In this document: one piece after another, positions 24,367-38,971 of the stretch | How positions within the stretch are numbered: the stretch's first letter is position 1 | Layout: the number at the start of each line of letters is the position of its first letter | Assembly: GCF_913063425.1 (NCBI RefSeq) | Contig: NZ_CAJXYK010000039.1 | Span: 1 to 59,630, forward strand | Reading direction: 5' to 3' | Length of the DNA stretch: 59,630 nt | Source: an uncultured Thiohalocapsa sp. | GTDB lineage: Bacteria; Pseudomonadota; Gammaproteobacteria; Chromatiales; Chromatiaceae | Translations under genes and position numbers: made by a program | Notes under the pieces: model-generated | Told to the model about the DNA's origin: nothing | Seen by the model: the letters and a program-made list of their open reading frames with translations, nothing else | Databases searched by the model: none

Positions 24367-24385
24367 AATGCGAATCGTTTCTATT
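24367..24385 (+). promoter_or_regulatory. Fur-like operator upstream of DUF2325 gene
   Basis: AATGCGAATCGTTTCTATT shares TGCGAATCGTT with the boxes at 30963 and 37880 (reverse strand). It lies about 110 bases upstream of the DUF2325 start. The sequence resembles Fur boxes of Burkholderia/Pseudomonas type. Binding by Fur is inferred. Confidence 0.65.
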
Positions 24386-24497
24386 ATCTGACGGCAAGCG
24401 AACGGCGCTCCCACCCGGGCGCCGGCCTTCGCCGCCAGCCGCCGCCGCAGGGCAACCGGCCAGCCGCGTCCCATCGATCTGACCCGAGGACACCGGC

Positions 24498-25859
24498 ATG
24501 TGCCGACACCACAGCAGCCCGCCCCCAGCCGTTGCACCGGACCCGACCACCGCGCCCGCGGATACCGCAGCCGCGCCCCAGCAGCAGCCGGCGAGCTTCC
24601 AGGCCACCGCGGCGCCGCGCCGGGCGCCCGGCACCCGCCGCAAGCTCTGGCAGCTGCCCGCCAAATTCCACTGCCCCCTCATCGGCACCTGTCTGCACGT
24701 GGACGAGCTGCGCGCCGTGGCGCGGCGCACCGGCGCCGTCCCCGAGCGCGGCGTGGGCGACTATCAGATGCATGTGAGCTTCGTCGCCGCTGCGGACCAT
24801 CGCAATCCCCTCTCGGCGGCGACCCAGAAGGCGCTGGACCGCAAGTATGCCGCCGCCCTGCGCCGCTTCGCACGCGCGCGAAGCACGGCAGCACTGCGCA
24901 CGCTCTGGGAGCAGCACCTGGCGGAGGGCCGGGTGCCGGAGGCGTTCTGGGCCCTCATGACCCATCCGCAGGCGGACCCGCCGCTGCACGCCCTGGCCTA
25001 TGAGGAGATTCACATGCGCTCGCACCAGATCGGCGCCGGCTTGGCGGCGGACGTGCAGGCGCTCACCGAGACCCGTGCCGAGCTCAGGCGCCTGCGCCGG
25101 GAGCAGGCCGCCGCGGCGGCCCGCCACGCGCAGACCCTCGCCGAGCGCGATCGCCGCCTCGCGGCCCTGACAGCACAGACCCAGGCGCTGCGGCAGTCCG
25201 AGCAGGACCTGCATGCCGCCCGCGCCCGCATCCACGACCTGGAGGCCGGCAATGCCCTGCGCGAGCTCTGGGAGCGGCTGGGCAGCACAGAGGCCCAACG
25301 CGATGCCGAGGCCACCGCCCGTTGCAGCGCCGAAGCCGACAACGCCCGGCTGCGGGATGCACTCACCCGCGCCCGGGCGGAAGCACGCACCCTCGCCGGG
25401 CAGCTCGCCGAGCGCGAGGCGGTGTGCGCGGCGCTGGAGCAACTGCTCGGCACCGCCCCGGCCTGCACCGGGGATTGCGACGACTGCGCCCGGGCGCGCG
25501 AGCCCCTGGATCTCGGCGGGCGCCGCATCCTCTGCGTCGGCGGTCGCGGCTCCCTGGCGCGCCACTACCGGGAGCTGGTGCAGCGCTGCAACGGGGAGCT
25601 GGTGCGCCACGACGGCGGCCTGGAGGAGAGCCGCCAGCGCCTGGAGAGCCTGCTCGCGAGTGCCGATGCCGTGGTCTGCCCGGCGGACGCTGTGAGTCAC
25701 GACGCCTACCTGCGCGCCAAACGCTTCTGCAAGCGCACCGCCAAGCCCTATGTGCTGCTGGAGCGCTCGGGCATCGGCGCCTTCGCCCGCGCCCTCGCCG
25801 ACCTCGCCGCGGCAGCAAACCCGCCAGCGACTGCGGGCGCCGCCGCGGGACGCTGCTGA
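24498..25859 (+). CDS. DUF2325 domain protein with long coiled coil and Cys motif
   Basis: 453 residues. The N-terminus (1-45) is Pro/Ala-rich. Residues ~45-180 form a helical domain containing KFHCPLIGTCLHVDELR. Residues ~195-320 are a coiled coil rich in Arg, Glu, Ala. A cysteine cluster CTGDCDDC near residue 325 precedes the C-terminal DUF2325 domain (RRILCVGGRGSLARHYREL to KRFCKRTAKPYVLL, ~345-430), a small Rossmann-like fold. DUF2325 proteins are widespread but uncharacterised, often near metal-handling genes. The Fur-like box upstream and the metal ATPase cluster downstream suggest an iron-linked role; that is inference. Confidence 0.82.
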   Translation: MCRHHSSPPPAVAPDPTTAPADTAAAPQQQPASFQATAAPRRAPGTRRKLWQLPAKFHCPLIGTCLHVDELRAVARRTGAVPERGVGDYQMHVSFVAAADHRNPLSAATQKALDRKYAAALRRFARARSTAALRTLWEQHLAEGRVPEAFWALMTHPQADPPLHALAYEEIHMRSHQIGAGLAADVQALTETRAELRRLRREQAAAAARHAQTLAERDRRLAALTAQTQALRQSEQDLHAARARIHDLEAGNALRELWERLGSTEAQRDAEATARCSAEADNARLRDALTRARAEARTLAGQLAEREAVCAALEQLLGTAPACTGDCDDCARAREPLDLGGRRILCVGGRGSLARHYRELVQRCNGELVRHDGGLEESRQRLESLLASADAVVCPADAVSHDAYLRAKRFCKRTAKPYVLLERSGIGAFARALADLAAAANPPATAGAAAGRC

Positions 25860-26217
25860 CGGCTGCCCGCAGCCGCAACGGCGCCCGCCGGGCAGGCCAG
25901 CTCCGCGGCCGGCCCGCCGGCGGACCCCCCGCCCGAAACCGTCAATCCCCTGATCCGCAGTCCCGACCATCCACTGATCCCTTGCCCTGGATCAAGGGCG
26001 AAGACGCGTCTGGTTGTTATTCGCAACGGTATTCCATTATCATCTTCCGCCGATATCGACGGTGACCGACAACGGCCGCCGCCGTTATTGGCGGCATACC
26101 CGACGCAGCCTCGCGTGACACGGCAGACACTCACCCCAGCCAAAGCCACCGGCCCAACGCCGCCAGCACGGCTGCACGGGCACGACCCATCGCATCGCGC
26201 AACCAAGGAGACGACGC
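25860..26217. other. Intergenic regulatory gap before the P-type ATPase cluster
   Basis: No coding frame is convincing. The AT-rich stretch 26005-26060 stands out from the surrounding GC-rich sequence and includes the Fur-like box at 26023-26041. A ribosome site AAGGAG at 26205-26210 serves the next gene. Confidence 0.55.
26023..26041 (-). promoter_or_regulatory. Fur-like operator upstream of the ATPase cluster
   Basis: On the minus strand the site reads GATAATGGAATACCGTTGC, keeping GATAATG of the classical Fur consensus (about 11 of 19 matches). On the plus strand the neighbouring TTATTCGCAA contains the reverse of TGCGAATAA, the half site shared with the other boxes. It is about 180 bases upstream of the first cluster gene. 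Confidence 0.5.
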
Positions 26218-27180
26218 ATGACTGACCACGCCGAGCAGCATGGCCCGGCCACGGGCTGCGGCCAGGCACAGGGGAGCAGCGCGCCGGGCGCCCCGCCCCA
26301 AGCCGCTGGCTACGCCATGCCTGGCACCGGGCAGGCGCAGCCCGGCCCCGGGCCGGGGCATCCGCACCAGGCTGCACCGGCAGGGGCAGCGGGCGCAGGC
26401 GACACCGCCGGACAGCGCGCGCCCGGCATGGCGATGTTCGGCGGACCTGCACCGGCTGGCCCGGGACCTTACGGGCCTGCGCCGGTGGGCCCGCTCCCCC
26501 ACGGACCAGCGGCAGTTGCTGCGCACGGCATGCAGCCCGTGCACCAGGGCGTGCACCAGGGCGTGCCGCCGGGGATGGCGGGCGGCATGCCGGGCAGCGC
26601 ACCCGGGCCCATGCCGCCGGCAGCCCAGCATCCGCATCCCGCCGCCGCTGCCGGGGCCTATGGTCCGCATGCCCATGCCATGGGTTATGGACCAGCACAG
26701 ACCATGGCTTACGGCCACCCCGCAGCGGGTGGTGCAGCCCATCCGGCACAGTTCGCGGGCGTTGCTCATGCCGGGATGGCGCCCGGCATGGCACCCGGCA
26801 TGCCCCCCGGTATCCCACCCGGTATCCCCGCAAGCGGGGCAGCAGGCTTGCCACCCGCCGGCATGGCGGCGGCGCCCGGCCCGGTTGCCGCGCAGTCACC
26901 TGCCGCGGACGGCAGACCGCGGGCAGGTATGGCGGAGATGCTCGAGGAGCTCGCCGGCGGCGGCAATGGGCTTGCGAGCCTGGGCCGCATGCTGAGCCTC
27001 GATGACTCAGAGTTCTGGAAGGGGGCGCTGGTGGGCGCGGCGGCGGTGCTGCTGCTCACAAATGAATCCATGCAGGACATGCTCTTCAAGACCGGCGCCC
27101 GGGCCAAGGAAGCAGTGCAGTCCGGGGCCGGCAAGCTCAAGGAAACCGCCGCCGCCGCAAAGACCGAGGCCGGGTCCTGA
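26218..27180 (+). CDS. His/Met/Pro/Gly-rich low-complexity protein with C-terminal membrane-anchor domain (LLTNE domain)
   Basis: 320 residues. Residues 1-235 are disordered and rich in Gly, Pro, Ala, His and Met, with local repeats such as APGMAPGMPPGIPPGIP and HQGVHQGV; many His and Met could bind metal. Residues ~258-320 form a conserved-looking module: FWKGALVGAAAVLLLTNESM, then an amphipathic helix with AKEAVQSGAGKLKE. The same module, FVRGLLIGAAAAYLLTNEDV, ends the protein at 27953-28402. The transmembrane helix plus helical tail recalls YtxH-like proteins. The ATG at 26218 has AAGGAG. Possibly a membrane-bound scaffold for iron compartment formation; that role is inference. Confidence 0.7.
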   Translation: MTDHAEQHGPATGCGQAQGSSAPGAPPQAAGYAMPGTGQAQPGPGPGHPHQAAPAGAAGAGDTAGQRAPGMAMFGGPAPAGPGPYGPAPVGPLPHGPAAVAAHGMQPVHQGVHQGVPPGMAGGMPGSAPGPMPPAAQHPHPAAAAGAYGPHAHAMGYGPAQTMAYGHPAAGGAAHPAQFAGVAHAGMAPGMAPGMPPGIPPGIPASGAAGLPPAGMAAAPGPVAAQSPAADGRPRAGMAEMLEELAGGGNGLASLGRMLSLDDSEFWKGALVGAAAVLLLTNESMQDMLFKTGARAKEAVQSGAGKLKETAAAAKTEAGS

Positions 27181-27351
27181 GCCCAGGGCACCCTCTGCCC
27201 AAGCATTCAGACGGCCGGGCGCGTGCATACCCGAACCCGCCGCCGCATGCGATCTCGCCCGCATGCGGCGCCAGGCCGCCGCGCCGCCTCGGCAGACCCA
27301 AGCAACCGACCACCGCCCGCGCCCCGGGGCGCAACCCAGCGAGATTCGACC

Positions 27352-27810
27352 ATGAGCGACCATCGTTACGACTCCCTGTTCCTAGACGCCGCCGCTGCGC
27401 GCTCAGGCGGGTGGCTGGCACCCGCAGCCCAGTACCCAAACCAGGATACGGCTTATCCAGCGCCCTGCGCCGGCTACGGCGGCACCAGCCCCTTTGGCAA
27501 TGTCGTCGAGATGGGCAAGCTCGGCGCTGTGGTGGGCCTCTGCGGCGCAGGCGCCGCCAATCTGCATCGACTCCAGGCGGGCGACACCGATACCCGCGGC
27601 GCGGTGCTCGACACGCTGCGCGGCGGCGCCGTCGCCGGTGTCACCACCGCGGCGGCCACGCTGGTGGCCTCGCGCTTCAGCTCCGGCACCCTCGCCTTCG
27701 CGGCGACCCTGGTCACGGGCACGGCCGTGGCCTATGCCCTCACCGCGGAATCGCCCCCTGACAGCGCCGTCATCGCCGCGGATGCCGCCGGCGAGGCCGG
27801 GTCGACATGA
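27352..27810 (+). CDS. Small Gly/Ala-rich membrane protein in ATPase cluster
   Basis: 152 residues. After a polar Tyr/Pro-containing N-terminus (MSDHRYDSLFLDAAAARSGG) come hydrophobic glycine-zipper-like segments: GNVVEMGKLGAVVGLCGAGAA (residues ~45-65), GGAVAGVTTAAATLVA, and FAATLVTGTAVAYAL. This suggests two or three membrane helices of the closely packed GxxxG type. No family recognised. It lies 171 bases after the LLTNE-domain gene and 142 bases before its paralog, on the same strand. The reading frame uses much less Arg than the alternative frames, supporting it as coding. Confidence 0.6.
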   Translation: MSDHRYDSLFLDAAAARSGGWLAPAAQYPNQDTAYPAPCAGYGGTSPFGNVVEMGKLGAVVGLCGAGAANLHRLQAGDTDTRGAVLDTLRGGAVAGVTTAAATLVASRFSSGTLAFAATLVTGTAVAYALTAESPPDSAVIAADAAGEAGST

Positions 27811-27952
27811 CCCGCACGTCGCGCCCGCACCGCTCCCGAACACCCTGCCGCAGCAGCCATTCGACGGATCAGCAGCACCGCCGGCGGCGCGCAGCGCGCC
27901 CAAGGCATGACCATCCCCCGGCCGCCGAGCCCAAGCACGAGGACTGCAGCCC

Positions 27953-28402
27953 ATGAGCGCCCCAGGCCATCCTTACACCCACGGCCATGCTGCCATGACG
28001 CCGACCGGGCTCCCCAGCCCGCAGCCCGCCGCGATGCCGCCGCAGGCCGGCGTGGCGCCCATCTTGGGTCAGCCGGCACCGAGCTACCCGGCGCCCTACC
28101 CCGTGGCCTATCCGGGCACCTATGCGCCGATGGCAGGCATGCAGCCCATGCCGACGGCGGTCCAGCCGGCGCCGCGACAGCCGCAGCCGGTGATGACCAG
28201 CGGCAGCGAGCGCTTCGTGCGCGGCCTGCTCATCGGCGCCGCCGCGGCCTACCTGCTCACCAACGAGGACGTGCAGCGCACCGTCATCAAGGGCGCCGTC
28301 AAGGTCTGGTCCACGCTGCAGGGCGGCATCGAAGAGGCCAAGGAGCGCTTCCGCGACGCCGAGGCCGAGATCCAGGCGGCGGCTGCCGATAAGCACGCCT
28401 GA
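27953..28402 (+). CDS. Pro/Met-rich protein with C-terminal LLTNE membrane-anchor domain (paralog of 26218-27180)
   Basis: 149 residues. The first ~80 residues are Pro, Ala, Tyr, Met and His rich (for example PSYPAPYPVAYPGTYAPMAG). From residue ~82 it shows SERFVRGLLIGAAAAYLLTN followed by EDVQRTVIKGAVKVWSTLQG and an acidic amphipathic helix. The module aligns without gaps to the C-terminus of the 26218 protein over the ~30 residues around LLTNE. The P-type ATPase gene starts 9 bases after its stop, so the two are very likely cotranscribed. Function unknown; inferred partner of the ATPase. Confidence 0.72.
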   Translation: MSAPGHPYTHGHAAMTPTGLPSPQPAAMPPQAGVAPILGQPAPSYPAPYPVAYPGTYAPMAGMQPMPTAVQPAPRQPQPVMTSGSERFVRGLLIGAAAAYLLTNEDVQRTVIKGAVKVWSTLQGGIEEAKERFRDAEAEIQAAAADKHA

Positions 28403-28410
28403 GGCCGCGC

Positions 28411-30588
28411 ATGGCCGCCGTCGTCGCGCACATCCGCCCCGTCAGCCGACCACCCGCGGCGCCGGCTGCACCGGCGCCCGCCCCGACGCCGGGCATCGAC
28501 TATCGCATCGTGCACGAGGTGCCCGGGCGCATCCGCCTGCGCATCCCGGCCCTGGGCCGCTCCGGCTGTGAGGCGGCCTGGATGGAGGCCTGGATGGACG
28601 CGGCCGCCGCCGTCACCGAGGCGCGCGCCAACCCTGTCGCCGGGTCACTGGTGCTGCGCTACACGGGCGGTGCGGCGGCGCGCGAGGCCCTGCTGCACCG
28701 GCTTCAGGCCTTCACCCCGGAGCGGATCGACGGGCTCGCGGATGACTGCGGCCGCGAGGCCGCGGCCGCCCCCATGGTCACCACCCTGCTGACGCTCGCG
28801 GCGCTGCCCTTCCTGACGCCGCCGATGCAGATGCTGCTGACCCTGGTGAATCTCGGCTCCACCCTGGCGAAGGGCGCTGAGACCCTGCTGCGCAAGGGCG
28901 TGAAGGTGGAGGTGCTGGATGCGGTGGCCGTCGGCCTCGCCGCCGCCAGCGGCAAGCCCTACACCGCCAACATCACGGATCTGCTGCTGGACCTGGGCGA
29001 GTACCTGGAGCAGCGTACCGCCCGCCAGTCCGACCGGCTGCTGCGCCGGCTGCTGCGCCCGGACCCGGCCATGGCCTGGGTGGAGCGCGACGGAGAGCTG
29101 ACGCAGATCGCAGGCGACCAGGTCCGCGCCGGCGAGCTGGTGGTCATCGGCCCCGGCGAGACGGTGCCCGTGGACGGCCATGTCCACGCCGGCACGGCGC
29201 TGGTGAATCAGTCCACGGTCACCGGCGAGGACCTGCCGGTGCGCAAGGAGCCGCCTGCGCGTGTCATCGCCGGCTCCGTGCTGGTGGAGGGCCGCCTGCG
29301 CGTCACGGCCACCCGGGTCGGCGCCGACACCACCACGGCGCGGGTGGCGCGCTTCATTCAGGAGTCCCTGGACCGCGGCGCCGACACCCAGCGGCTCGCC
29401 GACGAGCTGGCGGACAAGCGCGTCTACCTGACCCTCGGCACCGGGGCTGCGGTGTATGCGCTCACGCGGGACCTGACCCGGCTGCAGTCGGTGTTCCTGG
29501 TGGACTATGCCTGTGCCCTGAAGCTCGGCACGCCGGTGGCCTTCAAGTCCGGCATGGTGCGTGCTGCGGACCACGGCGTGCTGATGAAGGGCGGCGACGC
29601 CATCGAGCGTCTCGCCGGCGTGGACACCCTGGTGTTCGACAAGACCGGCACCCTGACCCACAGCGACCTCATGGTCACGGATGTGCACGTCTTCCCCAAC
29701 GACCTGGGCTGCACGGAGCAGCAGCTGCTCGCACTGGTGGCCTCAGTGGAGGAGCACGCGAGCCATCCGGTGGCGGCAGCCGTGGTGGAGGCGGCGCGTG
29801 AGCGTGACCTGGCCCACATCTCCCACGGCGAGGTGGACTACCTGGTGGCCCATGGCCTGAGTGCCGATGTGGACGCCGGCGGGCGCATCGTCGTCGGCAG
29901 CCGGCACTATCTGGAAGAGCACATGGACATCGGCTTCGCCGCCCACCAGACCCTGGTGGAGGGCTTGCAGGAGGCGGGCAAGATCCTGCTCTACGTCGGC
30001 AGCCACCGCGGCCCGCTCGGGGTCATCGCGCTGCGCGACACCCTGCGTGCGGACGCCGCCGCCACCGTGGCGCGGCTGCGCGCCCTGGGCATCCGGCAAG
30101 TCCTGATGATCACCGGCGACCGTCAGGAGAAGGCCGCAGCCCTGGCCGCGGAGCTCGGCCTGGACGCCTTCCATGCACAGGTGGAGCCGGAGGAGAAGGC
30201 ACAGATCGTCGAGGCCCTGCGGGCCGACGGCCACCGGGTGGGCTTCGTCGGCGACGGCGTCAACGATGGTCCGGCCCTCAGCGTGGCCGATGTCGGCATC
30301 GCCATGCCGCGCGGGGCGGACATCGCCCGTGCCACCGCGGACGTGGTGCTGCTCGACGACCAGCTCACCGGCATCGCCGATGCCCGGGAGATCGCCGGCA
30401 AGACCATGCGCCTGATCCGCGGCAACTTCACCGCCGCCAGCACCATCAACACGGGCATCCTGGGCGGCGCCGTGCTCGGCTGGCTGTCACCCGTGGCCAG
30501 CGCCCTGCTGCACAACGGCGCCACCATCGCTGTGCTGCTCAATGCCCTGAAGGGCGTCTCTATCGAAGGGCGCGCTGCTGAGCCGTGA
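28411..30588 (+). CDS. P1B-type heavy-metal ATPase with N-terminal HMA-like domain, FezB/CtpC-like
   Basis: 725 residues. The N-terminal HMA-like domain has VPGRIRLR (residues ~37-44) and no CxxC metal site. Core motifs are TGE (271-273), DKTGT with phosphorylated Asp410, HP in EEHASHP, and GDGVNDGPALS. The TM4 metal-site sequence is DYACALKLGTP with a lone Cys368, not CPC, SPC or TPC. Few membrane helices precede the actuator domain. These traits fit the P1B-6 class, which includes FezB of ferrosome clusters; CtpC-like Mn/Fe exporters are the alternative. The gene follows two LLTNE-module genes 9 to ~2200 bases upstream and precedes an HMA-like small gene with its own Fur-like box. Confidence 0.82.
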   Translation: MAAVVAHIRPVSRPPAAPAAPAPAPTPGIDYRIVHEVPGRIRLRIPALGRSGCEAAWMEAWMDAAAAVTEARANPVAGSLVLRYTGGAAAREALLHRLQAFTPERIDGLADDCGREAAAAPMVTTLLTLAALPFLTPPMQMLLTLVNLGSTLAKGAETLLRKGVKVEVLDAVAVGLAAASGKPYTANITDLLLDLGEYLEQRTARQSDRLLRRLLRPDPAMAWVERDGELTQIAGDQVRAGELVVIGPGETVPVDGHVHAGTALVNQSTVTGEDLPVRKEPPARVIAGSVLVEGRLRVTATRVGADTTTARVARFIQESLDRGADTQRLADELADKRVYLTLGTGAAVYALTRDLTRLQSVFLVDYACALKLGTPVAFKSGMVRAADHGVLMKGGDAIERLAGVDTLVFDKTGTLTHSDLMVTDVHVFPNDLGCTEQQLLALVASVEEHASHPVAAAVVEAARERDLAHISHGEVDYLVAHGLSADVDAGGRIVVGSRHYLEEHMDIGFAAHQTLVEGLQEAGKILLYVGSHRGPLGVIALRDTLRADAAATVARLRALGIRQVLMITGDRQEKAAALAAELGLDAFHAQVEPEEKAQIVEALRADGHRVGFVGDGVNDGPALSVADVGIAMPRGADIARATADVVLLDDQLTGIADAREIAGKTMRLIRGNFTAASTINTGILGGAVLGWLSPVASALLHNGATIAVLLNALKGVSIEGRAAEP

Positions 30589-30713
30589 ACAGGGCATCAC
30601 GACGGCCCGGCGGCGGTCTTGAGTTGGGGGGGACCGCCGAGATAACTGGGGCGCCAAATCGCAGTTCGTCATACCGTCCTCACAACTGGGTGGCGGACCC
30701 GAGTTAGGGTTAC

Positions 30714-30790
30714 CGTCCCCAGAGCTGTCCCCAGAGCTCGTCCCCAGAGCTCGTCCCCAGAGCTCGTCCCCAGAGCTCGTCCCCAGAGCC
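30714..30790. repeat. 13-bp tandem repeat, about six copies
   Basis: The unit CGTCCCCAGAGCT is repeated head to tail, with the first copy one base shorter and the last diverging into CCAGAGCCCTCGG. It lies between the ATPase and the HMA-like gene. Confidence 0.85.
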
Positions 30791-30962
30791 CTCGGTCCCG
30801 GCAATTTTTCGTTAGAGTTACTGTCACCGTTATTTTGCACAGGCAAGTCACGGCTGGGCATGGGCGACAGTCCCGGTGACGCGCCGGTGCGCGCCGCTGG
30901 TCAGGGAGAATCGGCGCTGGGGCACGCAGGTGCGAAGCCCGGGCTGCGCGGGAGTTGACTCG

Positions 30963-30981
30963 AATGCGAATCGTTCGTATT
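30963..30981 (+). promoter_or_regulatory. Fur-like operator upstream of HMA-like gene
   Basis: AATGCGAATCGTTCGTATT is a near palindrome (7 of 9 positions pair across the centre). It is 38 bases upstream of the ATG at 31019 and shares TGCGAATCGTTCG with the reverse complement of the 37880 site. Confidence 0.75.
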
Positions 30982-31018
30982 CTTTGTTCCGTTCTTATCC
31001 TTGGTTGAGACTCCTGAC

Positions 31019-31372
31019 ATGGGCCAGTACATCCACCACGTTCCCGGTCGCATCCGTATCCGTTCCAACGCCTTCCACTGCGAGGGCGAGCGCGCTGCCG
31101 CCGCGCAGGCGGAGCTGCTCGCCATGGACGGTATCCGCAGTGTGCAGGTCAGACCGCGGTCGTCGAGCCTGATCGTGCAATACGACCCGCAGCGGATCTC
31201 CCATGCCACCCTGTTCGCGGCACTGGAAGACCTCGGCTGCATGGCGCCGGTGCGCCGCGACACCACGCATGTGCGCCAGATCGGCGAAACCTTCGGCAAG
31301 GCCCTGGTGGGCGCCGTGATGCAGAAGGCGGTGGAGCAATCCGCCCGCAGCCTGGTGACGGGGATCGTCTGA
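31019..31372 (+). CDS. Small HMA-like protein (VPGRIRIR motif), possible FezC-like ferrosome protein
   Basis: 117 residues. Residues 1-75 look like a ferredoxin-like HMA fold: YIHHVPGRIRIRS at the start, RSVQVRPRSSSLIVQYDP in the middle, ATLFAALEDLGC at the end, with no CxxC. Residues ~85-117 form an amphipathic or membrane helix (GETFGKALVGAVMQKAVEQS). The VPGRIR motif matches the N-terminus of the P-type ATPase encoded upstream. The ATG at 31019 was chosen over the TTG at 31001. It has its own Fur-like box 38 bases upstream. Small HMA-like proteins with this R-rich motif accompany P1B-6 ATPases in ferrosome clusters; function here is inference. Confidence 0.75.
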   Translation: MGQYIHHVPGRIRIRSNAFHCEGERAAAAQAELLAMDGIRSVQVRPRSSSLIVQYDPQRISHATLFAALEDLGCMAPVRRDTTHVRQIGETFGKALVGAVMQKAVEQSARSLVTGIV

Positions 31373-31474
31373 CGCCGCCGCAGCCGCCCGGCGTACGGGA
31401 GGAGCGGGGGCGGCGCGACACACTCGCCGGCGCCGTGCTGTGGAGAGCTCGATGCCATATGATCACTTGCCCCC

Positions 31475-31519
31475 GGCGGACTGAAGTCCGCCTGCCCCAG
31501 GGTGCCGACTTCAGTCGGC
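31475..31519. repeat. Full copy of dispersed double-hairpin intergenic element
   Basis: Hairpin 1, GGCGGACTGAAGTCCGCC (31475-31492, perfect), spacer TGCCCCAGGGT, hairpin 2, GCCGACTTCAGTCGGC (31504-31519, perfect), followed by GTACCCGGGG. It lies in the convergent gap between the HMA-like gene and the parvulin gene, where it could act as a bidirectional terminator. Confidence 0.8.
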
Positions 31520-31660
31520 GTACCCGGGGCGGCCTCGCCACGTCGGCGCTGATGCACCAGCCTTGCGCCGGGGCCGCCCCATCGCCCGGTGGCGGCGGCG
31601 CCGGTCAGCGCGCAAGGCAAGCGGCGCCAACCGTGGCAGACGCTGCGACGCAGCAGCCTT

Positions 31661-33940
31661 TCAGTAGTCCAGCAGGTACTCGTACACCTGGATCTGCTCG
31701 GCGCGGCGCCGCTCGTCCACGGCGTCATCGAGCCGCTCGCTGAGGACGTTGCGCTTCAGCATATCCATCGGCATGGTCGGCTGTTCTGCGAGCGCTGCGT
31801 CGATGTCAGCGGCGTTGGCGCCGAAGGCCGCCAGCATGCTGCGGCCATTGCGCTGCCACCAGGCCCGCGCATCGCCGTCGCTGACATTATCCAGCTTGCG
31901 CAGAAAGTCACGCTCGAAGGCGACTGCGAGCGCCCGGTCACGCGCCTGCTCGAGGGCGATCTCGCGGTCGCGCTCGGCACGCAGGGCCTCCAGCGCCAGG
32001 GCTTCCTCCGCCGCATCAGCGAGACGCGCACCGATCTCCTCTGCGACATCCCCGAAGCGCGCATAGGCCGGGTCCTGCACCTCCCGCAGCCGCACCACGA
32101 AGTGGCCGAGGTCCGTCGTCAGGACGTCGCTCACCTGACCCGGTGCGAGCGTTGCCGCAGACGCCGCCACCGCCGCCGGCAGGTCCGTGCCACGGACGGA
32201 CTCGACCCCGCGCTCCGCCAGGATGGCGTCGAAGATTGCCTCGCGCTCGGCCGGCGTGGCGGCTGCGGCCACCTCACGCAGACGTGCCAGTCCGTCGTCA
32301 GCACCGCCGGAGACCAGCACGTCCAGGACGCGCACGGGGGCGTCGAGCTGGAAGGTCTCGCGCTGCGCGTCATAGTACGCCTGCTTCTCGTCGTCGGGGA
32401 TCTTGGCAGCGCGCAGGCGACGGACGATCTCGTCCTCCACCTCCGCCAACGGCCGATAGACCTGGCGCCTGCGAGCATCCACGCGCACCAGGAAGGTCCC
32501 CAGATCCGTTGTCACGGGGCCGCCGAAGACGCCCTGCTTCAGGCTCCGCGCGAGGTGGAGCAAAGGCTTCGGCAGGTCCGCCTCGGTGACGGTGCGCCCG
32601 GCAATGCCGGCCGGGGTCGCTCCGTCGGCCAGGGCCTTCAGCACAGCCTCCCCCTCCGCCTTCGACGCGACGCCGATGACCGTCGCCCGCTCGATGGGCG
32701 CATCCGACCACCTGGCCACCAGCTTGACCACCATGACACCCAGGGCGGCGGGGATGGGCTCACTCACCTGTCCGACGTCGAGCAGTCGCACCGCAGGCCG
32801 GACCGACTCAGGCAGGCCGGCCATGGGCACCAGGCCCGGCGTCTGGTCGGGTGTCGCAGGGTCCGATTCCGAAGGCTCGGCCGCCGGCGCGGCGAAGAGC
32901 GGCTTGGCCTCCTCGGCCAGCGCCGTCTCGGCAGCGGTCACGGATGGGAAAGTGCGCACCTGAACCAAGGCCTGGTCGAAGGGATTGCGCGCCACCAGCC
33001 GCGCCACATACCAGCCTGCGGGCGTTGCGATGACGTCGGTCATGTCCCCGGGCTCAGCGTGGAACAGGGCGTCGCGAACCGCCTGCGGCAGCCGCTCGCC
33101 GCGGATGGGCTCCGCCCCCAGCCAATGGCGTGGATCATCCGGCGCCTTGGCGATGGCATCACGCAGGGCGGTGGCCGCCGCCTCGGTGCCGCGCACAGCG
33201 AGGAGCACCTCGGTGCCGATGTCCGGGGTGCGGAATGCCTCCAGATGCTCGCGGTAGTACTGCGCCACCGCAGCGTCCGGGATCTGGTACTTGTCCACAT
33301 TCACCAGCGCGGCACCCGGATGGGCCGTCTCTTCCAGTGCGAGTGCAACGCGCTGCTCCACCCGCGGGTCTTCAGCAAGGCCCGCGTCCTCGGCCATGAG
33401 CGCCAGGAGCCGCTTGCGGATCATCCCGTCCAGGGCGTTCCTGCGCGCCTGGTACAGGTCCTCGCCGCGCGCACGCCCCACGCGCTGATTGAAATCCTGG
33501 ACCGTCAGGAAGGTCTCGCCGTGGCGGGTCACCAGCTCGGTCTCCGGGGACAGGTCCAGGCGGAGCTCCGCGGCATTGAAGATGCCTTTCATCAGCGCGG
33601 CGTCGTCGTGCTGTATACGCGTGCGCTCGTCGGCCTTCTCCAGCCCACGGATGGCCTCTTTGGAGGGCTTGTCCCTGGGCTCGCGTGTCGGCCTGGCCCC
33701 CGCCTCATGGGCCTGCTCCAATGCCCGGATGGCGTCCGCCGGCGCGGTCGCCGCGGGTCGCCGCGGGGACTCCAGCCGGCGCCGGGTCTGTTCTGATGAC
33801 TGCTCCAGGGCGTCCAGGACCTCCGGCGCCAGCTGCACCCCAGTATCAGCGGGCCCGGCGGCAGACGCCGGGCCGCTGAGGAAGGCCATGCAGGCACCGA
33901 CATGGATACCGAAACGAAGGAAGCGCAGCTGCAACGTCAT
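31661..33940 (-). CDS. Exported multi-module parvulin-type (PpiC/SurA-like) peptidyl-prolyl isomerase
   Basis: 759 residues from the ATG at 33940. A signal peptide (HVGACMAFLSGPASAAG) precedes a helical, Glu/Arg-rich N-terminal region. The SurA-like N-terminal chaperone part contains NALDGMIRKRLLALMAEDAG. Three parvulin-like modules then follow, around residues 265-330, 390-500 and 540-645, each ending in a pattern such as GWYVARLVAR, GTFLVRVDARR or GHFVVRLREV. Active-site residues look degenerate, as in chaperone-type parvulins. The C-terminal ~110 residues are helical. The genes upstream on the same strand encode two duplicated secreted Cys-containing proteins, possible clients. SurA normally has two modules; three is unusual. 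Confidence 0.75.
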   Translation of the reverse strand: MTLQLRFLRFGIHVGACMAFLSGPASAAGPADTGVQLAPEVLDALEQSSEQTRRRLESPRRPAATAPADAIRALEQAHEAGARPTREPRDKPSKEAIRGLEKADERTRIQHDDAALMKGIFNAAELRLDLSPETELVTRHGETFLTVQDFNQRVGRARGEDLYQARRNALDGMIRKRLLALMAEDAGLAEDPRVEQRVALALEETAHPGAALVNVDKYQIPDAAVAQYYREHLEAFRTPDIGTEVLLAVRGTEAAATALRDAIAKAPDDPRHWLGAEPIRGERLPQAVRDALFHAEPGDMTDVIATPAGWYVARLVARNPFDQALVQVRTFPSVTAAETALAEEAKPLFAAPAAEPSESDPATPDQTPGLVPMAGLPESVRPAVRLLDVGQVSEPIPAALGVMVVKLVARWSDAPIERATVIGVASKAEGEAVLKALADGATPAGIAGRTVTEADLPKPLLHLARSLKQGVFGGPVTTDLGTFLVRVDARRRQVYRPLAEVEDEIVRRLRAAKIPDDEKQAYYDAQRETFQLDAPVRVLDVLVSGGADDGLARLREVAAAATPAEREAIFDAILAERGVESVRGTDLPAAVAASAATLAPGQVSDVLTTDLGHFVVRLREVQDPAYARFGDVAEEIGARLADAAEEALALEALRAERDREIALEQARDRALAVAFERDFLRKLDNVSDGDARAWWQRNGRSMLAAFGANAADIDAALAEQPTMPMDMLKRNVLSERLDDAVDERRRAEQIQVYEYLLDY

Positions 33941-34196
33941 AAGATGCTCTGTGAACCGTCTGACGAAAAGGACCCCGCCCGGGGCGATTTCGGCACCGCA
34001 CAGTAACCTTTCTGGGCTGTGCCGGATCCGCAGCGCAACCGCAGGGCTCCGAATCAGGCATGCATCAGACCAGGCTCGACGGACGCCCCTGGGCTCGGCA
34101 GTACCCCGACGCGCCTGCAACCACAGCAGTGCTGTACGCGTCACGTACAGCAGCCTCAACGCCGGGAACCACCAAGGCGATCCGCGCAAAGGCCAG

Positions 34197-34559
34197 TCAC
34201 TCGGCCGCGATGCCGCAGGCAGCGGCGTCCGGACCGATGTCGTTCAGTCTGAACCTCGTCGGCACGATCGGATCGAAGGTCATGGCGCCGTAGATCGGCG
34301 CGTACTCCGTCAGGTATTTGGCCTCAAGCGCGGTGCAGAGCAGGTTGCCCACTGCGTCCAGCTCAATCACATAGGGCCCCGACTGGCTCTGAATGAGGGT
34401 CACACCGACGATGACGTCGCACTTGTCTTCGCCCGCGACGATCTCGACCTGGTCGAGGATGTGGAAACAGATGTCACGGGTGATGTCGGCCGCGGCCGGC
34501 TGCGCGCTCATTAAGCCGATGATGGTGAGACAAGGAGCCGCGAGTGCGCGCTCGCGCAT
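34197..34559 (-). CDS. Secreted small protein, tandem paralog 1
   Basis: 120 residues with a signal peptide ending at AQPAAA-DI. The mature part is ~95 residues with four cysteines (ICFHIL, DKCDVIV, NLLCTALE, AACG) and shared blocks QSGPYVIEL and YAPIYGAMTFDPI. The ATG at 34559 has AAGGAG. It aligns along its whole length with the next upstream gene (34760-35134), including the leader TAAGGAG-N-CGATCATGCG, so the pair arose by tandem duplication. The family was not recognised. The cysteines may form two disulfides. Confidence 0.72.
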   Translation of the reverse strand: MRERALAAPCLTIIGLMSAQPAAADITRDICFHILDQVEIVAGEDKCDVIVGVTLIQSQSGPYVIELDAVGNLLCTALEAKYLTEYAPIYGAMTFDPIVPTRFRLNDIGPDAAACGIAAE

Positions 34560-34759
34560 GATCGTCTCCTTACGATGGGGTTGTTTGAGTGACGACCTGC
34601 CCTGCCCGGCCGATTCCGCGTCAATTGGGGCAGGCGCAGCACCTGTGCCGGAGCCCAGACCACGCCTCGGGCAGACTCAGCAACACACCGAGCCCGGACA
34701 CAGCGGTCCGGACTCGGCCAGGCTCGCAACTAGGCTACGAGCCCTTCCCAGGTCTCGGC

Positions 34760-35134
34760 TTACTCGGTGCCGCAGGCAACCGCGTCAGGGCCGATGTGGT
34801 TGAGCGTGAAGGCCTGCATACACATTGCATCGGCCTGGCAGATCGGATCGAAGGTGATGGTGCCGTAGATCGGCGCATAGCCGTTCACGTACTTGACTTC
34901 GAGCGCCGTGCAGAGCAGGTTGCCGTCGGCACCCAGCTCGATCATGTACGGGCCCTGGTTGCTCTCGACCAGGAACGCCTCGACGGCGACGTCGCAGCTG
35001 TCCTCATTGGCCAGGATCTTCAGCTGGTCGAGGACGGTGAAGCAGACGTCGAGGGTGATGTCGGCGGCGGCGGGCTGAGCGCTCATCAGACCAACGGTGG
35101 CCAGGCTGGCAGCGGCGATAGCGAATTTACGCAT
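34760..35134 (-). CDS. Secreted small protein, tandem paralog 2
   Basis: 124 residues from the ATG at 35134 (AAGGAG upstream). A signal peptide MRKFAIAAASLATVGLMSAQ is followed by PAAADITLDVCFTVLDQ, then NLLCTALEVKYV and YAPIYGTITFDPI. About 60% identical by eye to paralog 1, but with two extra cysteines in CQADAMCMQ, giving six. The C-terminus NHIGPDAVACG matches NDIGPDAAACG in the paralog. An imperfect inverted repeat at 34720-34742 (GGCTCG ... CGAGCC) lies just after its stop and may act as a processing or termination hairpin. Function unknown. Confidence 0.75.
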   Translation of the reverse strand: MRKFAIAAASLATVGLMSAQPAAADITLDVCFTVLDQLKILANEDSCDVAVEAFLVESNQGPYMIELGADGNLLCTALEVKYVNGYAPIYGTITFDPICQADAMCMQAFTLNHIGPDAVACGTE

Positions 35135-35835
35135 GATCGACTCCTTACGATTGAGTGGGTTGAGTGACAACGTGTCGCGTCTGGCGGCACCGATTGCGTT
35201 CTCTTCGGTGCCTGGAGCCTGATTCCCGAACGCTCCCCAGACGCGATACAAGATAGTTGAGACCCCAAGACTCAGCTATCGGGCATTCCCCTCTTGCAGC
35301 ACCCGCTATGCCCCGGAATGTGGACGTACCTGCATGCGCCTGTGCGCCCGGATATGACTATTGAGTGACGCAGTTTGATTGACCAAATCAGTTGGCATTG
35401 CCGCCGTTTTCCGCCGTTGCGGAGACGATCCGGAGAAACCAATGACCTCCATCCGTGTAAGCCAACTGGCGGCGAGGCTTTCGGGGATTTCCATGATCGA
35501 TACCCCGGGCAAATAGGGTGCCGGAATCGGAAACACCGGGAGCTGACCGCAAAGGCATGAGCGCATTGCACGTACCTGCGCTGTCCAGATTCCAGCACAG
35601 GCACCGGCCGGCGACACGAAGCGGCTCGACAGTTCCTGGCAACGGGGCCCATGGTCACTGGACGCATGGCGCTTGGATGCGCAAAAAAAAAGCGGAGCAT
35701 CCTGCCCCGCCGTAGGAACGCCGACAAATCGGCGCTTTCCCTCGGGTACGCGCCCCCAAAACAACTGTGCGGTGGTCCCCGGCCTGGGCGCAGAAGGCGC
35801 AGGCAGCACGGGGCATGGGGGGCGCCGAGAGACGG
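35135..35835. other. Gene-poor gap with one terminator
   Basis: A minus-strand frame at 35272-35727 is open but is Arg/Cys-rich, has no signal or domain, and lacks a ribosome site, so it is not called. The GC content drops here compared with flanking genes, which fits acquired or decayed DNA. The only clear element is the terminator at 35683-35708. Confidence 0.5.
35683..35708 (-). terminator. Rho-independent terminator on minus strand
   Basis: Read on the minus strand: GGGGCA-GGA-TGCTCC forms a six-pair stem (one G-U) followed by GC and nine T. It lies 128 bases after the stop of the 35836-36186 gene, which reads toward it. Confidence 0.75.
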
Positions 35836-36186
35836 TCAGCTGTGGCGGCGACTGCGTCCGCGCAGCGGCGTCAGCACGATCCCGCCGAGCCCGATCAGGG
35901 CCAAGGGCGCGAGCGCCCGCACCTGCGGCTCGAAGGAAGCGGTGTCGAACTTGTGCTTGCCGAGCACCGGCGTGGCCATGGGAGGCGTGGCCACGGGAAT
36001 GGCCGGATCGATGCGGTCGTTTGGACGCAGGCTGTGGTCGGCGCTGCTGCCGCGGAGAAACCCGCTTGAATCCTTGCCCTGGAAAAGGTTGCCGCCTGCG
36101 CCGATGAGGGTCGCCTGCGCCGACCCCACCGTGGTGGTAAGCACGCGCGCGCCCGCGGTCATGGCCCGAAGGGCTGTCAGTGTCAT
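35836..36186 (-). CDS. Small exported protein with C-terminal sorting-like tail
   Basis: 116 residues from the ATG at 36186, with AGGGGA 8 to 10 bases upstream. The N-terminus could be a weak signal peptide (ALRAMTAGARVLTTTVGSAQA). The C-terminus is EPQVRALAPLALIGLGGIVLTP followed by a basic cluster RGRSRRHS, recalling PEP-CTERM-type sorting signals (short polar motif, one hydrophobic helix, basic end), though the motif is not canonical. The middle is Pro-rich (IPVATPPMATPVLG). A rho-independent terminator follows. Unrecognised family; expression is plausible because of the terminator. Confidence 0.55.
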   Translation of the reverse strand: MTLTALRAMTAGARVLTTTVGSAQATLIGAGGNLFQGKDSSGFLRGSSADHSLRPNDRIDPAIPVATPPMATPVLGKHKFDTASFEPQVRALAPLALIGLGGIVLTPLRGRSRRHS

Positions 36187-36588
36187 GCGCCGATCCCCTG
36201 ACTGTGTAAACGAGGTTAAACTGATACGCGCGGCGCCCGCGGCATCGTGTCCGTGGCGTTGGGACGCCCACCAAGTGTTGACGATTGCGGTGCAAACGAT
36301 CTGCGATTCACAGGCGATGCGACATCAGTGAATTGACTGTCTATGACATCAGTTGTTCACTGTCTTGTGATTGGAGGATTCCTCACCTCAGATTTCGAGA
36401 CGCAGCGGGGTACGCCAGTTGTCACAGTGCTCGATGCTGCGAGCGGGCGCGCTGCCGACTCCAGCGATGCGGGGCTGGCACCCTTGGGGGATCGCCTTAA
36501 ACTCAGGACAATGACCCGCAGCGGGGCGTTCCGACGGCCACCCTCCCCACCACGCCGATTCACACCCAGCAGTTCTCCCACGCCCGCC
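36187..36588. other. Divergent intergenic region with a direct repeat
   Basis: Lower GC between 36270 and 36400. The nine-base sequence GACATCAGT occurs at 36321 and again at 36345, 24 bases apart, each followed by a related stretch ending in GACTG or CACTG. The spacing of about two helical turns suits a regulator binding site. It lies between the divergent sorting-tail gene and the CDF transporter gene. Confidence 0.5.
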
Positions 36589-37677
36589 ATGCACGAGCAC
36601 GACATCGCCGCCTGGCAGCACGGCCACGACTTCAGCACCCCGGCCGAGCAGGCCGCCGAGCAGCGCACCCGCTGGGTGGTCTACCTCACTGTGACGGCCA
36701 TGGCGGTGGAGCTCCTCGCCGGCTGGGTCACGGGGTCCATGGCGCTGCTGGCGGACGGCTGGCACATGGGCAGTCATGCAGCGGCCCTGGGCCTGAGCGT
36801 GCTCGCCTACCGCTTCGCGCGCCGGCATGCCGACGACGACCGGTTCAGCTTCGGCACCGGTAAAGTGTCACCGCTCGCCGGCTACACCAGTGCCCTGCTG
36901 CTCGGCGTCGGTGCGCTGTGGCTGTTGCTGGAGTCCGGACAGCGGCTGCTGCATCCCGTGTCGATCCACTACGGCGAGGCCATCGTGGTCGCCGTACTCG
37001 GCCTGGCGGTGAACCTGGCGAGCGCCTGGCTGCTGGGAGGCGTTCACGACCATGCCCACGCCGGACATCATCACGGCCACCACCACGCGCCTGCCCGGCG
37101 GGGCCAGCGCGACGAGGGCGCCTCCGGCCCGAGCCGTGCCGGCCGACACCACAGGCTCAACGCCGCCGCCACTGCCCCAGACGGTCACCGGCACACGGAT
37201 CACAACCTGCGCGCCGCCTATCTGCACGTCATCGCGGACGCGCTGACCTCCGTGCTCGCCATCGCAGCGCTCACCGCCGGCCTGATCCTCGGCTGGGGCT
37301 TTCTGGACCCGCTCATCGGCATCGCGGGCGGCCTGCTGATCGCCCGCTGGGCCTGGGGGCTGGCCCGCGACAGCGCCCTGATGCTGCTGGACGCCGAAGC
37401 GCGCGGCGACCTCGCCGCCGACATCCGCCACGCGCTGGCGGCCGAGGACGACCTCGCGGTGAGCGATCTGCATCTCTGGCGCATCGGCACCGCGAGCCAC
37501 GCCTGCATCCTCTCCGTGGTCACCCACGACCCAAAGCCCGTGGAGCACTACAAGGCGCTCATGGCACACATCCCGGGCCTGGACCATCTGACGGTGGAGG
37601 TGCAGCAATGCAGCGCGGCGCGCTGTGCCGAGCCCACGGGTCAGTCCGCCCCGCGGGCAGCCGCCGACAGCGCTTGA
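36589..37677 (+). CDS. Cation diffusion facilitator, DmeF-like metal(II)/H+ antiporter
   Basis: 362 residues with six membrane helices. The first metal-site half is LLADGWHMGSHA and the second is LHVIADALTSVLAI, giving the HxxxD-type and Dx(W)xxD-type ligands of CDF proteins. A His-rich cytoplasmic loop (HDHAHAGHHHGHHH) of about 45 residues separates helices IV and V. The N-terminal HEHDIAAWQHGHDF and the GWHM wording match the DmeF branch, which exports Co, Ni or Fe. The start at 36589 is preferred over a longer frame. It lies between the P-type ATPase cluster and the ferric-iron binding protein gene, so iron efflux is a reasonable inference. Confidence 0.88.
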   Translation: MHEHDIAAWQHGHDFSTPAEQAAEQRTRWVVYLTVTAMAVELLAGWVTGSMALLADGWHMGSHAAALGLSVLAYRFARRHADDDRFSFGTGKVSPLAGYTSALLLGVGALWLLLESGQRLLHPVSIHYGEAIVVAVLGLAVNLASAWLLGGVHDHAHAGHHHGHHHAPARRGQRDEGASGPSRAGRHHRLNAAATAPDGHRHTDHNLRAAYLHVIADALTSVLAIAALTAGLILGWGFLDPLIGIAGGLLIARWAWGLARDSALMLLDAEARGDLAADIRHALAAEDDLAVSDLHLWRIGTASHACILSVVTHDPKPVEHYKALMAHIPGLDHLTVEVQQCSAARCAEPTGQSAPRAAADSA

Positions 37678-37879
37678 GGACAGGTTGCACGCTCGGTCCG
37701 CGCGCCGGCGTCCAACGGCGCCGGGGCCGCGGCGCGCGCAGCCGGCACCAAGCCCTCGGCAGGCAGGGTACCCATGCGGGTCTTAGGCCTCGATACCGAC
37801 GCACGCGTGACCGCGCAACGCAGACCGTGCAGCGTCCCACCGCCGAGCCCCGGCAAACCAGAACGCGCCCGCAAAAAGT

Positions 37880-37898
37880 AATGCGAACGATTCGCGAT
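37880..37898 (-). promoter_or_regulatory. Fur-like operator upstream of ferric-iron binding protein gene
   Basis: The reverse complement reads ATCGCGAATCGTTCGCATT, sharing CGAATCGTTCG-N-ATT with the 30963 site. It contains a nearly perfect palindrome GCGAA...TTCGC and sits 50 bases upstream of the ATG at 37949, a typical position for repression. Confidence 0.78.
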
Positions 37899-37948
37899 AC
37901 TGTTAAGGTCGCAAGCTTCAGCTCTGCAATATCAACTGAGGAGACAAG

Positions 37949-38971
37949 ATGCGCAACAACACCGCCATCGGCGCCGCCATGCTGTTCTGCCTGGTCGCCA
38001 CAGCCGCCCAGGCCGAGGGCGAGCTGAACCTCTACTCGTCCCGGCACTACGACACGGATGAACGCCTTTACTCGGAGTTCGAGGAGCAGACCGGCATCGA
38101 GATCAACCGCATCGAGGGCAAGGGCGACGAGCTCATCGAGCGCATGAAGGCCGAGGGCCGCAACAGCCCCGCCGACATCCTGATCACGGTGGACGCCGGC
38201 CGCCTGTGGCGTGCCGACGAGGCCGGGCTCTTCCAGCCGGTGGAGTCGGAGCTGCTGGAGTCGCGCATCCCCGCCTGGCTGCACCACCCGGACGGCCATT
38301 GGTGGGGCTTCTCGAAGCGGGCGCGTATCATTTTCTACGACAAGGAGCGCGTGGACCCACAGGATATCCAGACCTACCAGGACCTGGCGGACCCCAAACT
38401 CAAGGGCATGGTCTGCACCCGCAGCGCAAGCAACATCTACATGCTCTCGCTGATGGCCGCGCTGATGGAGCACCTCGGACCGGAAGCGGCCGAGCAATGG
38501 GCCGAAGGCGTTTGGAACAACCGCGCCCGTGACCCCGAGGGCGGTGATACCGACCAGCTCAAGGCCATCGCCTCGGGTGAGTGTGCCATCGTGCTCTCCA
38601 ACACCTATTACTTCGCGCGCGCCCTGCGCAAGGGCGACCCCACCCTGGACGCAGAGGCCCTGGAGGGCATCGGCTGGGTCTTCCCGAACCAGGAGAGCTT
38701 CGGCGCCCATGTGAACATCTCCGGCGCCGGCGTGGCCAGGCATGCCCCCAACCGCGAGAACGCCGTCAAGTTCCTGGAGTACCTGAGCAGCGAGCAGGCG
38801 CAGGAGTACTTCTCCGCCGGCAACGACGAGTACCCAGCGGTTCCGGGCACGCCGCTCGCCGACAGCGTGGCCGAGCTCGGCACCTTCAAGGAAGACACCA
38901 TCAACCTGAACGTCCTGGGCGAGAATCAGGCCGAGGCCCAGCGCATCTACGACCGGGTCGGCTACGAATGA
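37949..38971 (+). CDS. Ferric-iron ABC transporter substrate-binding protein (FutA/FbpA type)
   Basis: 340 residues with signal peptide (MRNNTAIGAAMLFCLVATAA, cleavage after AQA). The mature start ELNLYSSRHYDTDERLYSEF is typical of class 1 iron-binding proteins, where the His/Tyr of SSRHY take part in binding; NTYYFAR supplies the paired tyrosines that bind ferric iron. It captures iron(III) in the periplasm. No permease or ATPase gene of this transporter is adjacent. The Fur-like box 50 bases upstream predicts repression by iron. A stem-loop follows at 39038-39075. Confidence 0.93.
   Translation: MRNNTAIGAAMLFCLVATAAQAEGELNLYSSRHYDTDERLYSEFEEQTGIEINRIEGKGDELIERMKAEGRNSPADILITVDAGRLWRADEAGLFQPVESELLESRIPAWLHHPDGHWWGFSKRARIIFYDKERVDPQDIQTYQDLADPKLKGMVCTRSASNIYMLSLMAALMEHLGPEAAEQWAEGVWNNRARDPEGGDTDQLKAIASGECAIVLSNTYYFARALRKGDPTLDAEALEGIGWVFPNQESFGAHVNISGAGVARHAPNRENAVKFLEYLSSEQAQEYFSAGNDEYPAVPGTPLADSVAELGTFKEDTINLNVLGENQAEAQRIYDRVGYE

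Follow-up and report, generated by a model that had tools for sequence, protein, structure and literature searches.

Fez clusters and the Thiohalocapsa locus

Shewanella putrefaciens counts among the ferrosome-bearing taxa, and the P1B-6 ATPases are distinguished by the absence of a CPC motif and by an SCA-type motif in the fourth transmembrane segment (TM4). The substrate of this class has been tabulated as Fe(II) (PMC7558416). Rhodopseudomonas palustris CGA009 has been described as making ferrosomes from six fez genes (PMC12016538), and D. magneticus RS-1, a relative of Solidesulfovibrio, as forming them also (PMC12748827). The locus considered here lies in a 59,630-nucleotide stretch of DNA, the window, from an uncultured Thiohalocapsa sp. 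(contig NZ_CAJXYK010000039.1), in which positions 24498-31372 probably (at a rough probability of 0.8) hold a fez-type gene set for ferrosomes, the host being a purple sulfur bacterium of Chromatiaceae type. Judged from its sequence the cluster is a member of the fez kind, with an ATPase of the FezB clade and the small proteins that accompany it, and it would be expected to form ferrosomes. Its central genes are as follows.

26218-27180, plus strand: Pro/His/Met-rich protein with an FWKG...LLTNE membrane module (fez FW-type), from phmmer and iterated profile searches
27349-27810, plus strand: Gly-zipper membrane protein, MamC-like (fez), from the NCBIfam MamC profile and family comparison
27953-28402, plus strand: LLTNE-module protein with a short Pro-rich N-terminus (fez), directly upstream of the ATPase gene, from an iterated profile search
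28411-30588, plus strand: FezB-type P1B ATPase with an N-terminal HMA_2-like domain and DYACALK in TM4, from profiles, motif and trees
31019-31372, plus strand: small HMA_2 protein (PF19991, 41.2 bits, E 2.1e-10, cut-off 30)

A first-pass annotation of this DNA had described these genes as a Pro/His/Met-rich pair with a common LLTNE membrane module, a Gly-zipper membrane protein, a P1B ATPase without CPC and a small HMA-like protein sharing VPGRIR with the ATPase, and these descriptions have stood. A check of the open reading frames found them where it had placed them; the pair retrieve one another in an iterated profile search, the shared module reading FWKGALVGAAAVLLLTNE in the long protein and FVRGLLIGAAAAYLLTNE in the short one; the ATPase matches a heavy-metal P-type profile (TIGR01525, 490.9 bits, cut-off 346.25); and VPGRIR is seen in both the ATPase and the small protein, the latter matching HMA_2 above cut-off. 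The Gly-zipper gene is present, with its start set at ATG 27349 from the family's MS.. N-terminus, and the HMA_2 gene more probably starts at ATG 31019 than at the TTG listed at 31001.

The ATPase and its companions

What places the ATPase among the iron-storage systems is its motif and its position in trees. At the place of the CPC of Cu and Zn pumps it carries DYACALKLGTP, which makes it by motif a P1B-6 ATPase; across the rows of its clade the TM4 motif runs D[YFH][SA]C[ASTP][LVI]K, with DYACALK in the window. The N-terminus resembles HMA_2 at 24.9 bits, below the cut-off of 30. The ATPase tree sets 40 rows, the window among them, against 15 other P1B ATPases, with support of 100/99, and this clade of 40 holds the ATPases of R. 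palustris, Shewanella and Solidesulfovibrio; a quick tree of all 62 rows gives it a Shimodaira-Hasegawa-like approximate likelihood ratio (SH-aLRT) support of 99. The 62 rows take in 15 of 55 distant loci (L050-L104), picked for spread, and are without L114 (same contig as L026) and L116 (a fragment). For the 40-versus-15 tree a further seven rows were dropped (five of the genome's own paralogues, L052 and L047b), and its clade includes four second-copy paralogues of the genus (L117-L120). ATPases with CPC, CPG or SPC motifs, including the CPC-type L002 of the same genome, fall outside the clade.

A scan for relatives of the ATPase gave at least 80 loci. Among the matches listed, the named genomes show identities of 74% (Halochromatium), 58% (Thiospirillum), 49% (R. 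palustris XCP), 45-46% (Photobacterium and Ferrimonas), 44% (Solidesulfovibrio) and 43% (Shewanella). R. palustris XCP has a single close homologue (E 4.8e-195, the next 3.6e-72), and in the window's own genome no second close match was found, the next lying at 4.8e-77.

The companions of the ATPase were compared across 38 fez sources, namely L025-L049, L105-L116 and the window, with L026 and L114, on the same contig, both counted. The LLTNE module, by iterated profile, lies beside the ATPase in 37 of the 38, the sole miss being a 4 kb contig (L044), and beside none of 59 other ATPase loci (the 55 distant ones, some on short contigs, and four second-copy loci). The MamC-like protein accompanies the ATPase in 34/38 (misses L035, L043, L044 and L115) and was not found in those distant loci or in the second-copy loci. 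By phmmer the long LLTNE protein has matches in the same relative position within the family (at least 10 loci) and outside it in Shewanella (L038), Ferrimonas (L031) and Photobacterium (L037), and Pfam gives the LLTNE proteins a weak YtxH match in 7/33 and DUF5132 and SARAF in 4/33 each. Since the LLTNE and MamC-like proteins are standing companions of the ATPase across many bacteria they are not new parts of this organism, and the first-pass claim of unfamiliar scaffold proteins finds no support. In 31/38 sources a small gene of HMA_2 type is found no further than 6.5 kb from the ATPase; HMA-type genes also adjoin many other, distant P1B ATPases, and therefore this gene is not diagnostic of fez.

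The order HMA_2, long LLTNE, MamC-like, short LLTNE, ATPase is found in R. palustris XCP, Shewanella TC10 and Solidesulfovibrio alcoholivorans. For instance, the six-gene R. palustris system (RPA2333-2338 in CGA009, compared via XCP, L049) has an ATPase of the same clade, 49% identical, and like the window has an LLTNE protein, a MamC-like protein and an HMA_2 protein in the same order. It differs in the FeoB/FeoC-like genes (so labelled by eye) and the cytochrome resembling FezC that lie in its vicinity, and in a long-LLTNE (FW-type) counterpart that is short and matches weakly (E ~1e-3), whereas in the window DUF2325 lies upstream and HMA_2 downstream. The clusters of Shewanella, Photobacterium, Ferrimonas and others (L030-L034, L036-L038), whose ATPases are 43-47% identical to that of the window among the matches listed, share its HMA_2, long LLTNE, MamC-like, short LLTNE and ATPase genes; they have two HMA_2 genes upstream, of which one belongs to the operon and the other is divergent, where the window has none. 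In the Desulfovibrio-type cluster of S. alcoholivorans (L047), a relative of D. magneticus, all five protein families are present as in the window; unlike the window it has a FezC-like protein of 77 residues, encoded between short LLTNE and ATPase, and its MamC-like protein stands closer to MamC proper. The fez reading proposed at first pass is thus supported, with an ATPase that groups with fez-bearing taxa and outside the CPC/CPG/SPC-type ATPases (CtpC itself not in the tree), a gene order common to those taxa and small proteins clearly tied to FezB-type neighbourhoods. The purple-sulfur host proposed with it agrees with the nearest named relatives among the matches listed, Halochromatium and Thiospirillum, both Chromatiaceae.

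Two groups within the clade stand apart. Four genomes of the window's genus have a second FezB-clade ATPase (L117:8600-11044, L118:9721-11907, L119:8102-10558 and L120:7614-9656), which groups with desulfobacterial FezB and has no LLTNE or MamC-like genes nearby; in L117 and L120 it is adjoined by HMA_2 and DUF2325 genes very like those of the window. These paralogues were not accepted as a second fez operon because none of the membrane modules lies nearby. A separate branch (L041, L046, L048 and L043) comprises Thauera, Azoarcus, Azotobacter and an uncultured proteobacterium; its members have LLTNE proteins, their MamC-like proteins being divergent or missing, and a different use of the system there is possible.

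Proposed mechanism

How might such a cluster operate? Under iron shortage the release of Fur would probably derepress it, and the FezB ATPase (28411-30588) would then pump Fe(II) into membrane vesicles, the substrate, the direction and the vesicles themselves all being part of the proposal. The HMA_2-like domain of the ATPase and the separate HMA_2 protein may pass iron to the ATPase or tune it. The two LLTNE proteins would sit in the vesicle membrane, with their Pro/His/Met-rich tails coating the vesicle or gathering iron. Also in that membrane, the MamC-like protein would face the stored iron mineral and may touch or seed it, as MamC does with magnetite. In homology, gene order and phylogeny the cluster sides with fez systems, and it has Fur-like boxes, part of which recur in relatives.

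The same parts could be arranged otherwise, as a plasma-membrane efflux platform on which the ATPase exports Fe(II) or another metal and the LLTNE proteins serve to cluster it, with no organelle. In mycobacteria PacL proteins work with CtpC, CtpG and CtpV, and a membrane module with a metal-binding tail beside a P1B ATPase recalls them; moreover DmeF, a Co/Ni exporter (396.2 bits, cut-off 250), is encoded ~6 kb from the cluster. Yet DmeF lies near the cluster in only two of the 44 other loci compared (L025 and L105), gene order and phylogeny match those of ferrosome-making taxa, and a relative of MamC together with Fur boxes fits storage under shortage better than efflux under excess, so that an efflux platform is unlikely.

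The Gly-zipper protein and MamC

For the Gly-zipper protein there is no useful Pfam family (one of 39 fez homologues matches an unrelated one), and the resemblance that emerges is to MamC (Mms13) of the magnetosome. The window protein, read in the Pfam/NCBIfam, profile-profile, alignment and tree analyses from 27265 (in frame, 28 residues before the likely ATG), matches the NCBIfam MamC model NF038051 with an E of 1.2e-7 and 31.9 bits against a cut-off of 100, and 37 of the 39 fez homologues match it at E<=0.01, the best at 5.6e-15, with one other NCBIfam family matched by a single member. In whole-genome searches the top MamC match was the fez gene in 7/7 genomes (E 3.4e-12 to 2.4e-4, coordinates matched by hand), with the next best, second fez copies aside, at 0.08 or worse. 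At E<=1e-4, 398 genomes of the window's own phylum gave 16 with a match, 13 above the cut-off and three below it, the three being the window's own genome, G558 and G466, with none in 14 controls; in both G558 and G466 the match is a gene within a fez cluster. The phylum of Solidesulfovibrio, searched across 395 genomes, yielded 13 with a match, none above cut-off; one is L047, and 11 of the 12 others adjoin clear LLTNE modules, nine of them on a short stretch that also takes in part of the ATPase. Neither the seven genomes searched whole nor these 395 had a match above the MamC cut-off (0/7 and 0/395). The twelfth match (L171/L183) is a MamC-like gene beside a DUF2325 gene and an LLTN fragment; in L183:1221-3150 DUF2325, the LLTN-module fragment and the MamC-like gene stand together, on a 7.5 kb contig without an ATPase.

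The relation holds in the other direction, in that a fez model built without any MamC retrieves 13/13 true MamC proteins (47.8-69.8 bits, in a small database), and profile-profile comparison of fez with MamC gives a probability of 99.1% and an E of 1.2e-18 (single target) at 23% identity. The two align with a colinear core over nearly the whole length and few gaps. It might be argued that this likeness is the convergence of Gly/Ala-rich membrane helices, with no common ancestry: the fez proteins are short, Ala/Gly-rich and below the MamC cut-off, the matches in R. palustris XCP (1.2e-4) and Rhodomicrobium (2.4e-4) are weak, and at a lax E<=1 the profile finds matches in 8/14 control genomes, none over cut-off (0/14 at 1e-4). 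Against this, none of ten composition shuffles matches the profile, every match at E<=1e-4 in the 398 genomes is either over the MamC cut-off or a fez gene, and the reverse model, the profile-profile score and the nearly gap-free core all point to kinship; convergence is accordingly an improbable account. On these comparisons the fez Gly-zipper protein is related to magnetosome MamC, a hint of kinship between two bacterial iron compartments.

Which protein descends from which is another matter. In a tree of 63 rows and 85 columns, with L041 left out for its very long branch in an earlier tree, the 13 MamC proteins and 10 desulfobacterial fez proteins come together at 99/93, and all 27 MamC and desulfobacterial fez proteins at 94/90, with MamC nested among the latter; in an earlier tree of 52 rows long branches meet, and the tree tool warns of few columns. 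With few columns, long branches and no root, the tree does not show a direction of descent. The window protein also departs from MamC in its place and in detail, lying in a fez cluster and not among magnetosome genes; at the one true MamC locus examined of the 13 (L167), MamX (462.5 bits, cut-off 400) and FeoB adjoin. Since the fez members fall below the MamC cut-off they are termed MamC-like and not MamC. Glu66 and Asp70 of MamC have been described as matching the iron spacing in magnetite (PMC6584501, PMC7604359) and would, by spacing alone, correspond to an EAxxD motif, an acidic pair that part of the fez family keeps (E in 16/39, D or E four residues on in 24/39); the window protein has G for E and retains D.

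A structural model of the window protein has helices only, with a predicted local distance difference test (pLDDT) of 64.8 and a predicted template modelling score (pTM) of 0.29, too weak for a fold search. Six relatives (L025, L105, L106, L109, L110 and L111) have two tandem MamC-like genes of different subfamilies where the window has one, and the first copy may therefore have been lost from the window.

The DUF2325 protein

Upstream of the core genes lies a further candidate member of the iron regulon.

24498-25859, plus strand: DUF2325 coiled-coil protein, candidate iron-regulon accessory (PF10087, E 3e-25, 88.7 bits, cut-off 33.6)

The protein is made up of an N-terminal helical domain with conserved Cys/His, long helices spanning ~155 residues and a Rossmann-like DUF2325 domain, and HC...G.C with further His/Cys residues is kept in 17 homologues. 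Its model (pLDDT 82.1, pTM 0.37) gave no match at E<=0.001 in a fold search against the PDB, the best being 0.13. Homologues at E<=1e-20 occur in 43/49 fez genomes of the family against 21/145 others, or by genus in 19/20 fez genera against 7/41 others (overlap hand-counted), both counts being without correction for phylogeny; the exceptions are six fez genomes in which it is missing and five genomes without fez in which the match is strong. It adjoins fez in the window, L105, L106, L025 and L124; mostly, however, it is not next to fez: of the 43 genomes with both, only 11 have the two on one contig with no more than 12 kb between it and the first-copy ATPase (a count by hand, many assemblies being fragmented). 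As a core fez component it was rejected, PF10087 being found in 6/16 fez-bearing genomes (the window's own included) and giving no match in R. palustris XCP and Shewanella TC10.

Its neighbours elsewhere were viewed in seven of nine other stretches from the family (L122, L123 and L125-L131, with L127 and L128 left out). By Pfam, L125 has hemP, Fur and a TonB receptor, L123 has hemP together with a ferritin-like gene and Bfd, L130 has hemP and L131 a ferritin-like gene; by eye, L122 has a TonB receptor; no iron-type neighbours were recognised in L126 and L129. In Ferrimonas and Solidesulfovibrio the neighbours are neither fez nor, by eye, iron genes. In Campylobacter DUF2325 has been described as a gene next to katA under the control of PerR (PMC9426514), and in anammox bacteria as a possible encapsulin cargo (PMC6934571). 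The protein is best taken as an accessory of iron or redox processes.

Fur-like boxes

Three Fur-like boxes are retained in the window.

24367-24385, plus strand: Fur-like box upstream of the DUF2325 gene, AATGCGAATCGTTTCTATT, 12/14 scored positions, 0/50 shuffles
30963-30981, plus strand: Fur-like box upstream of the HMA_2 gene, AATGCGAATCGTTCGTATT, 13/14, 0/50 shuffles
37880-37898, plus strand: Fur-like box upstream of the iron-binding protein gene, not fez core, AATGCGAACGATTCGCGAT, two mismatches

Four had been claimed at first pass, and the fourth, at 26023, was rejected as being at chance level: it scores 11/19 against the classical Fur consensus, equalled by 13-28 sites in each of 10 shuffled windows. 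The pattern gives six strand-matches in the window, at three places, against a mean of 0.92 and a largest value of 5 among shuffles, none of 100 reaching 6. As the pattern was written after the sites had been seen this test is partly circular, and the boxes in relatives are the better support. In L105 the counterpart of the 24367 box, AATGCGAGCCGTTCTTATT, lies at about the same distance, and the 30963 box is near-identical. In the relatives at large, where 350 bases upstream to 60 inside the gene were scored and a site passed if at most 1/50 shuffles reached it, boxes passed for HMA_2 in 11/25 rows, for long-LLTNE in 8/27 and for DUF2325 in 7/18, with ~4% expected from the set-up. These counts include the window (two), near relatives with identical sites (L135, L136 and L141) and the duplicated contig L026/L114, and that for DUF2325 one weak hit of another gene (L025:8314). 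FUR-family genes are present in the window's own genome, and C. difficile fezA and fezB have been described as under Fur control (PMC12574912).

Flanking genes

Both flanks named at first pass, DmeF and a ferric-iron-binding protein, are backed by profile or structure-sequence matches.

37949-38971, plus strand: FutA/FbpA-type periplasmic ferric-iron-binding protein, a neighbour and not fez core (E 7.1e-112 to 2pt1, 'Iron transport protein')

This protein is predicted to belong to the same Fur regulon as the cluster, and L105 too has a homologue in the vicinity of its cluster. An 842-residue protein with several PPIC-type rotamase stretches, which had no phmmer matches among the 44 compared loci, is encoded at 31661-34189 on the minus strand, in the interval separating the cluster from DmeF. 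Also on the minus strand, at 34197-34559 and 34760-35251, are two similar small secreted-looking tandem proteins that have GLMSAQPAAADIT in common and no clear family.

Weight of the evidence and meaning

Several points weigh against a ferrosome gene set. The operon start at 26218 is without a convincing Fur box in the window, the best site upstream scoring 8/14 and being reached by 41/50 shuffles. Identity of the ATPase to those of ferrosome-related genera is only 43-49% among the matches listed, the equivalence of the L049 cluster with RPA2333-2338 is itself presumed, and no ferrosome is reported for purple sulfur bacteria in the surveyed part of the ferrosome literature. A FezC-type cytochrome at E<=0.01 was found in none of 18 family genomes (the window's own included), up to the best 150 candidates per genome having been scored (the best 150 of 194 in the window's own), nor was one found in Halochromatium. 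FezC has been described as the cytochrome of the Desulfovibrio-type cluster (PMC10979944), and homologues lie near the clusters of R. palustris XCP and Solidesulfovibrio, that of L047 matching nothing in Pfam at 0.01. No FezC-like gene at E<=0.01 was found in the genomes of Shewanella TC10 and P. jeanii either, and its absence from Shewanella TC10 means that FezC is not a feature of every fez type. As for the notion of an ordinary P1B exporter (Cu, Zn/Cd or Mn) whose neighbours have nothing to do with it, the closest solved structures are indeed Cu and Zn ATPases and general heavy-metal profiles match, but a Cu/Zn exporter was rejected on the absence of a CPC/CPG/SPC motif and on the tree position, ATPases with such motifs lying outside the clade (CtpC not in the tree), and with neighbours conserved across classes the idea is hardly credible.

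Beyond the fez reading a wider proposal may be put forward tentatively, at a little short of even odds: that the fez Gly-zipper protein and MamC are one family, that MamC came from, or was exchanged with, a desulfobacterial-type ferrosome membrane protein, that the fez protein contacts the ferrosome mineral as MamC does magnetite, and that DUF2325 is an unrecognised Fur-controlled ferrosome partner in purple sulfur bacteria. The cluster itself belongs to an already known kind, and the two points that look new are the MamC link and the association of DUF2325 with fez. No fez-MamC link is named in the surveyed part of the ferrosome and magnetosome literature (PMC12748827, PMC12713370, PMC13052382, PMC12805115, PMC9160268), a thin coverage that leaves the novelty of the link unsure.

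At E<=1e-100 the ATPase is found in 49/194 genomes of the family and in 20/61 genera (G003 with the second copy only), so that roughly one in four of the sampled family genomes carries the ferrosome gene set, in hosts whose photosystem and cytochromes demand much iron. For one small fez protein it also supplies a relative, MamC, and if the common ancestry of these membrane proteins is true, the evolution of lipid-bounded iron organelles would become directly testable by gene swaps.

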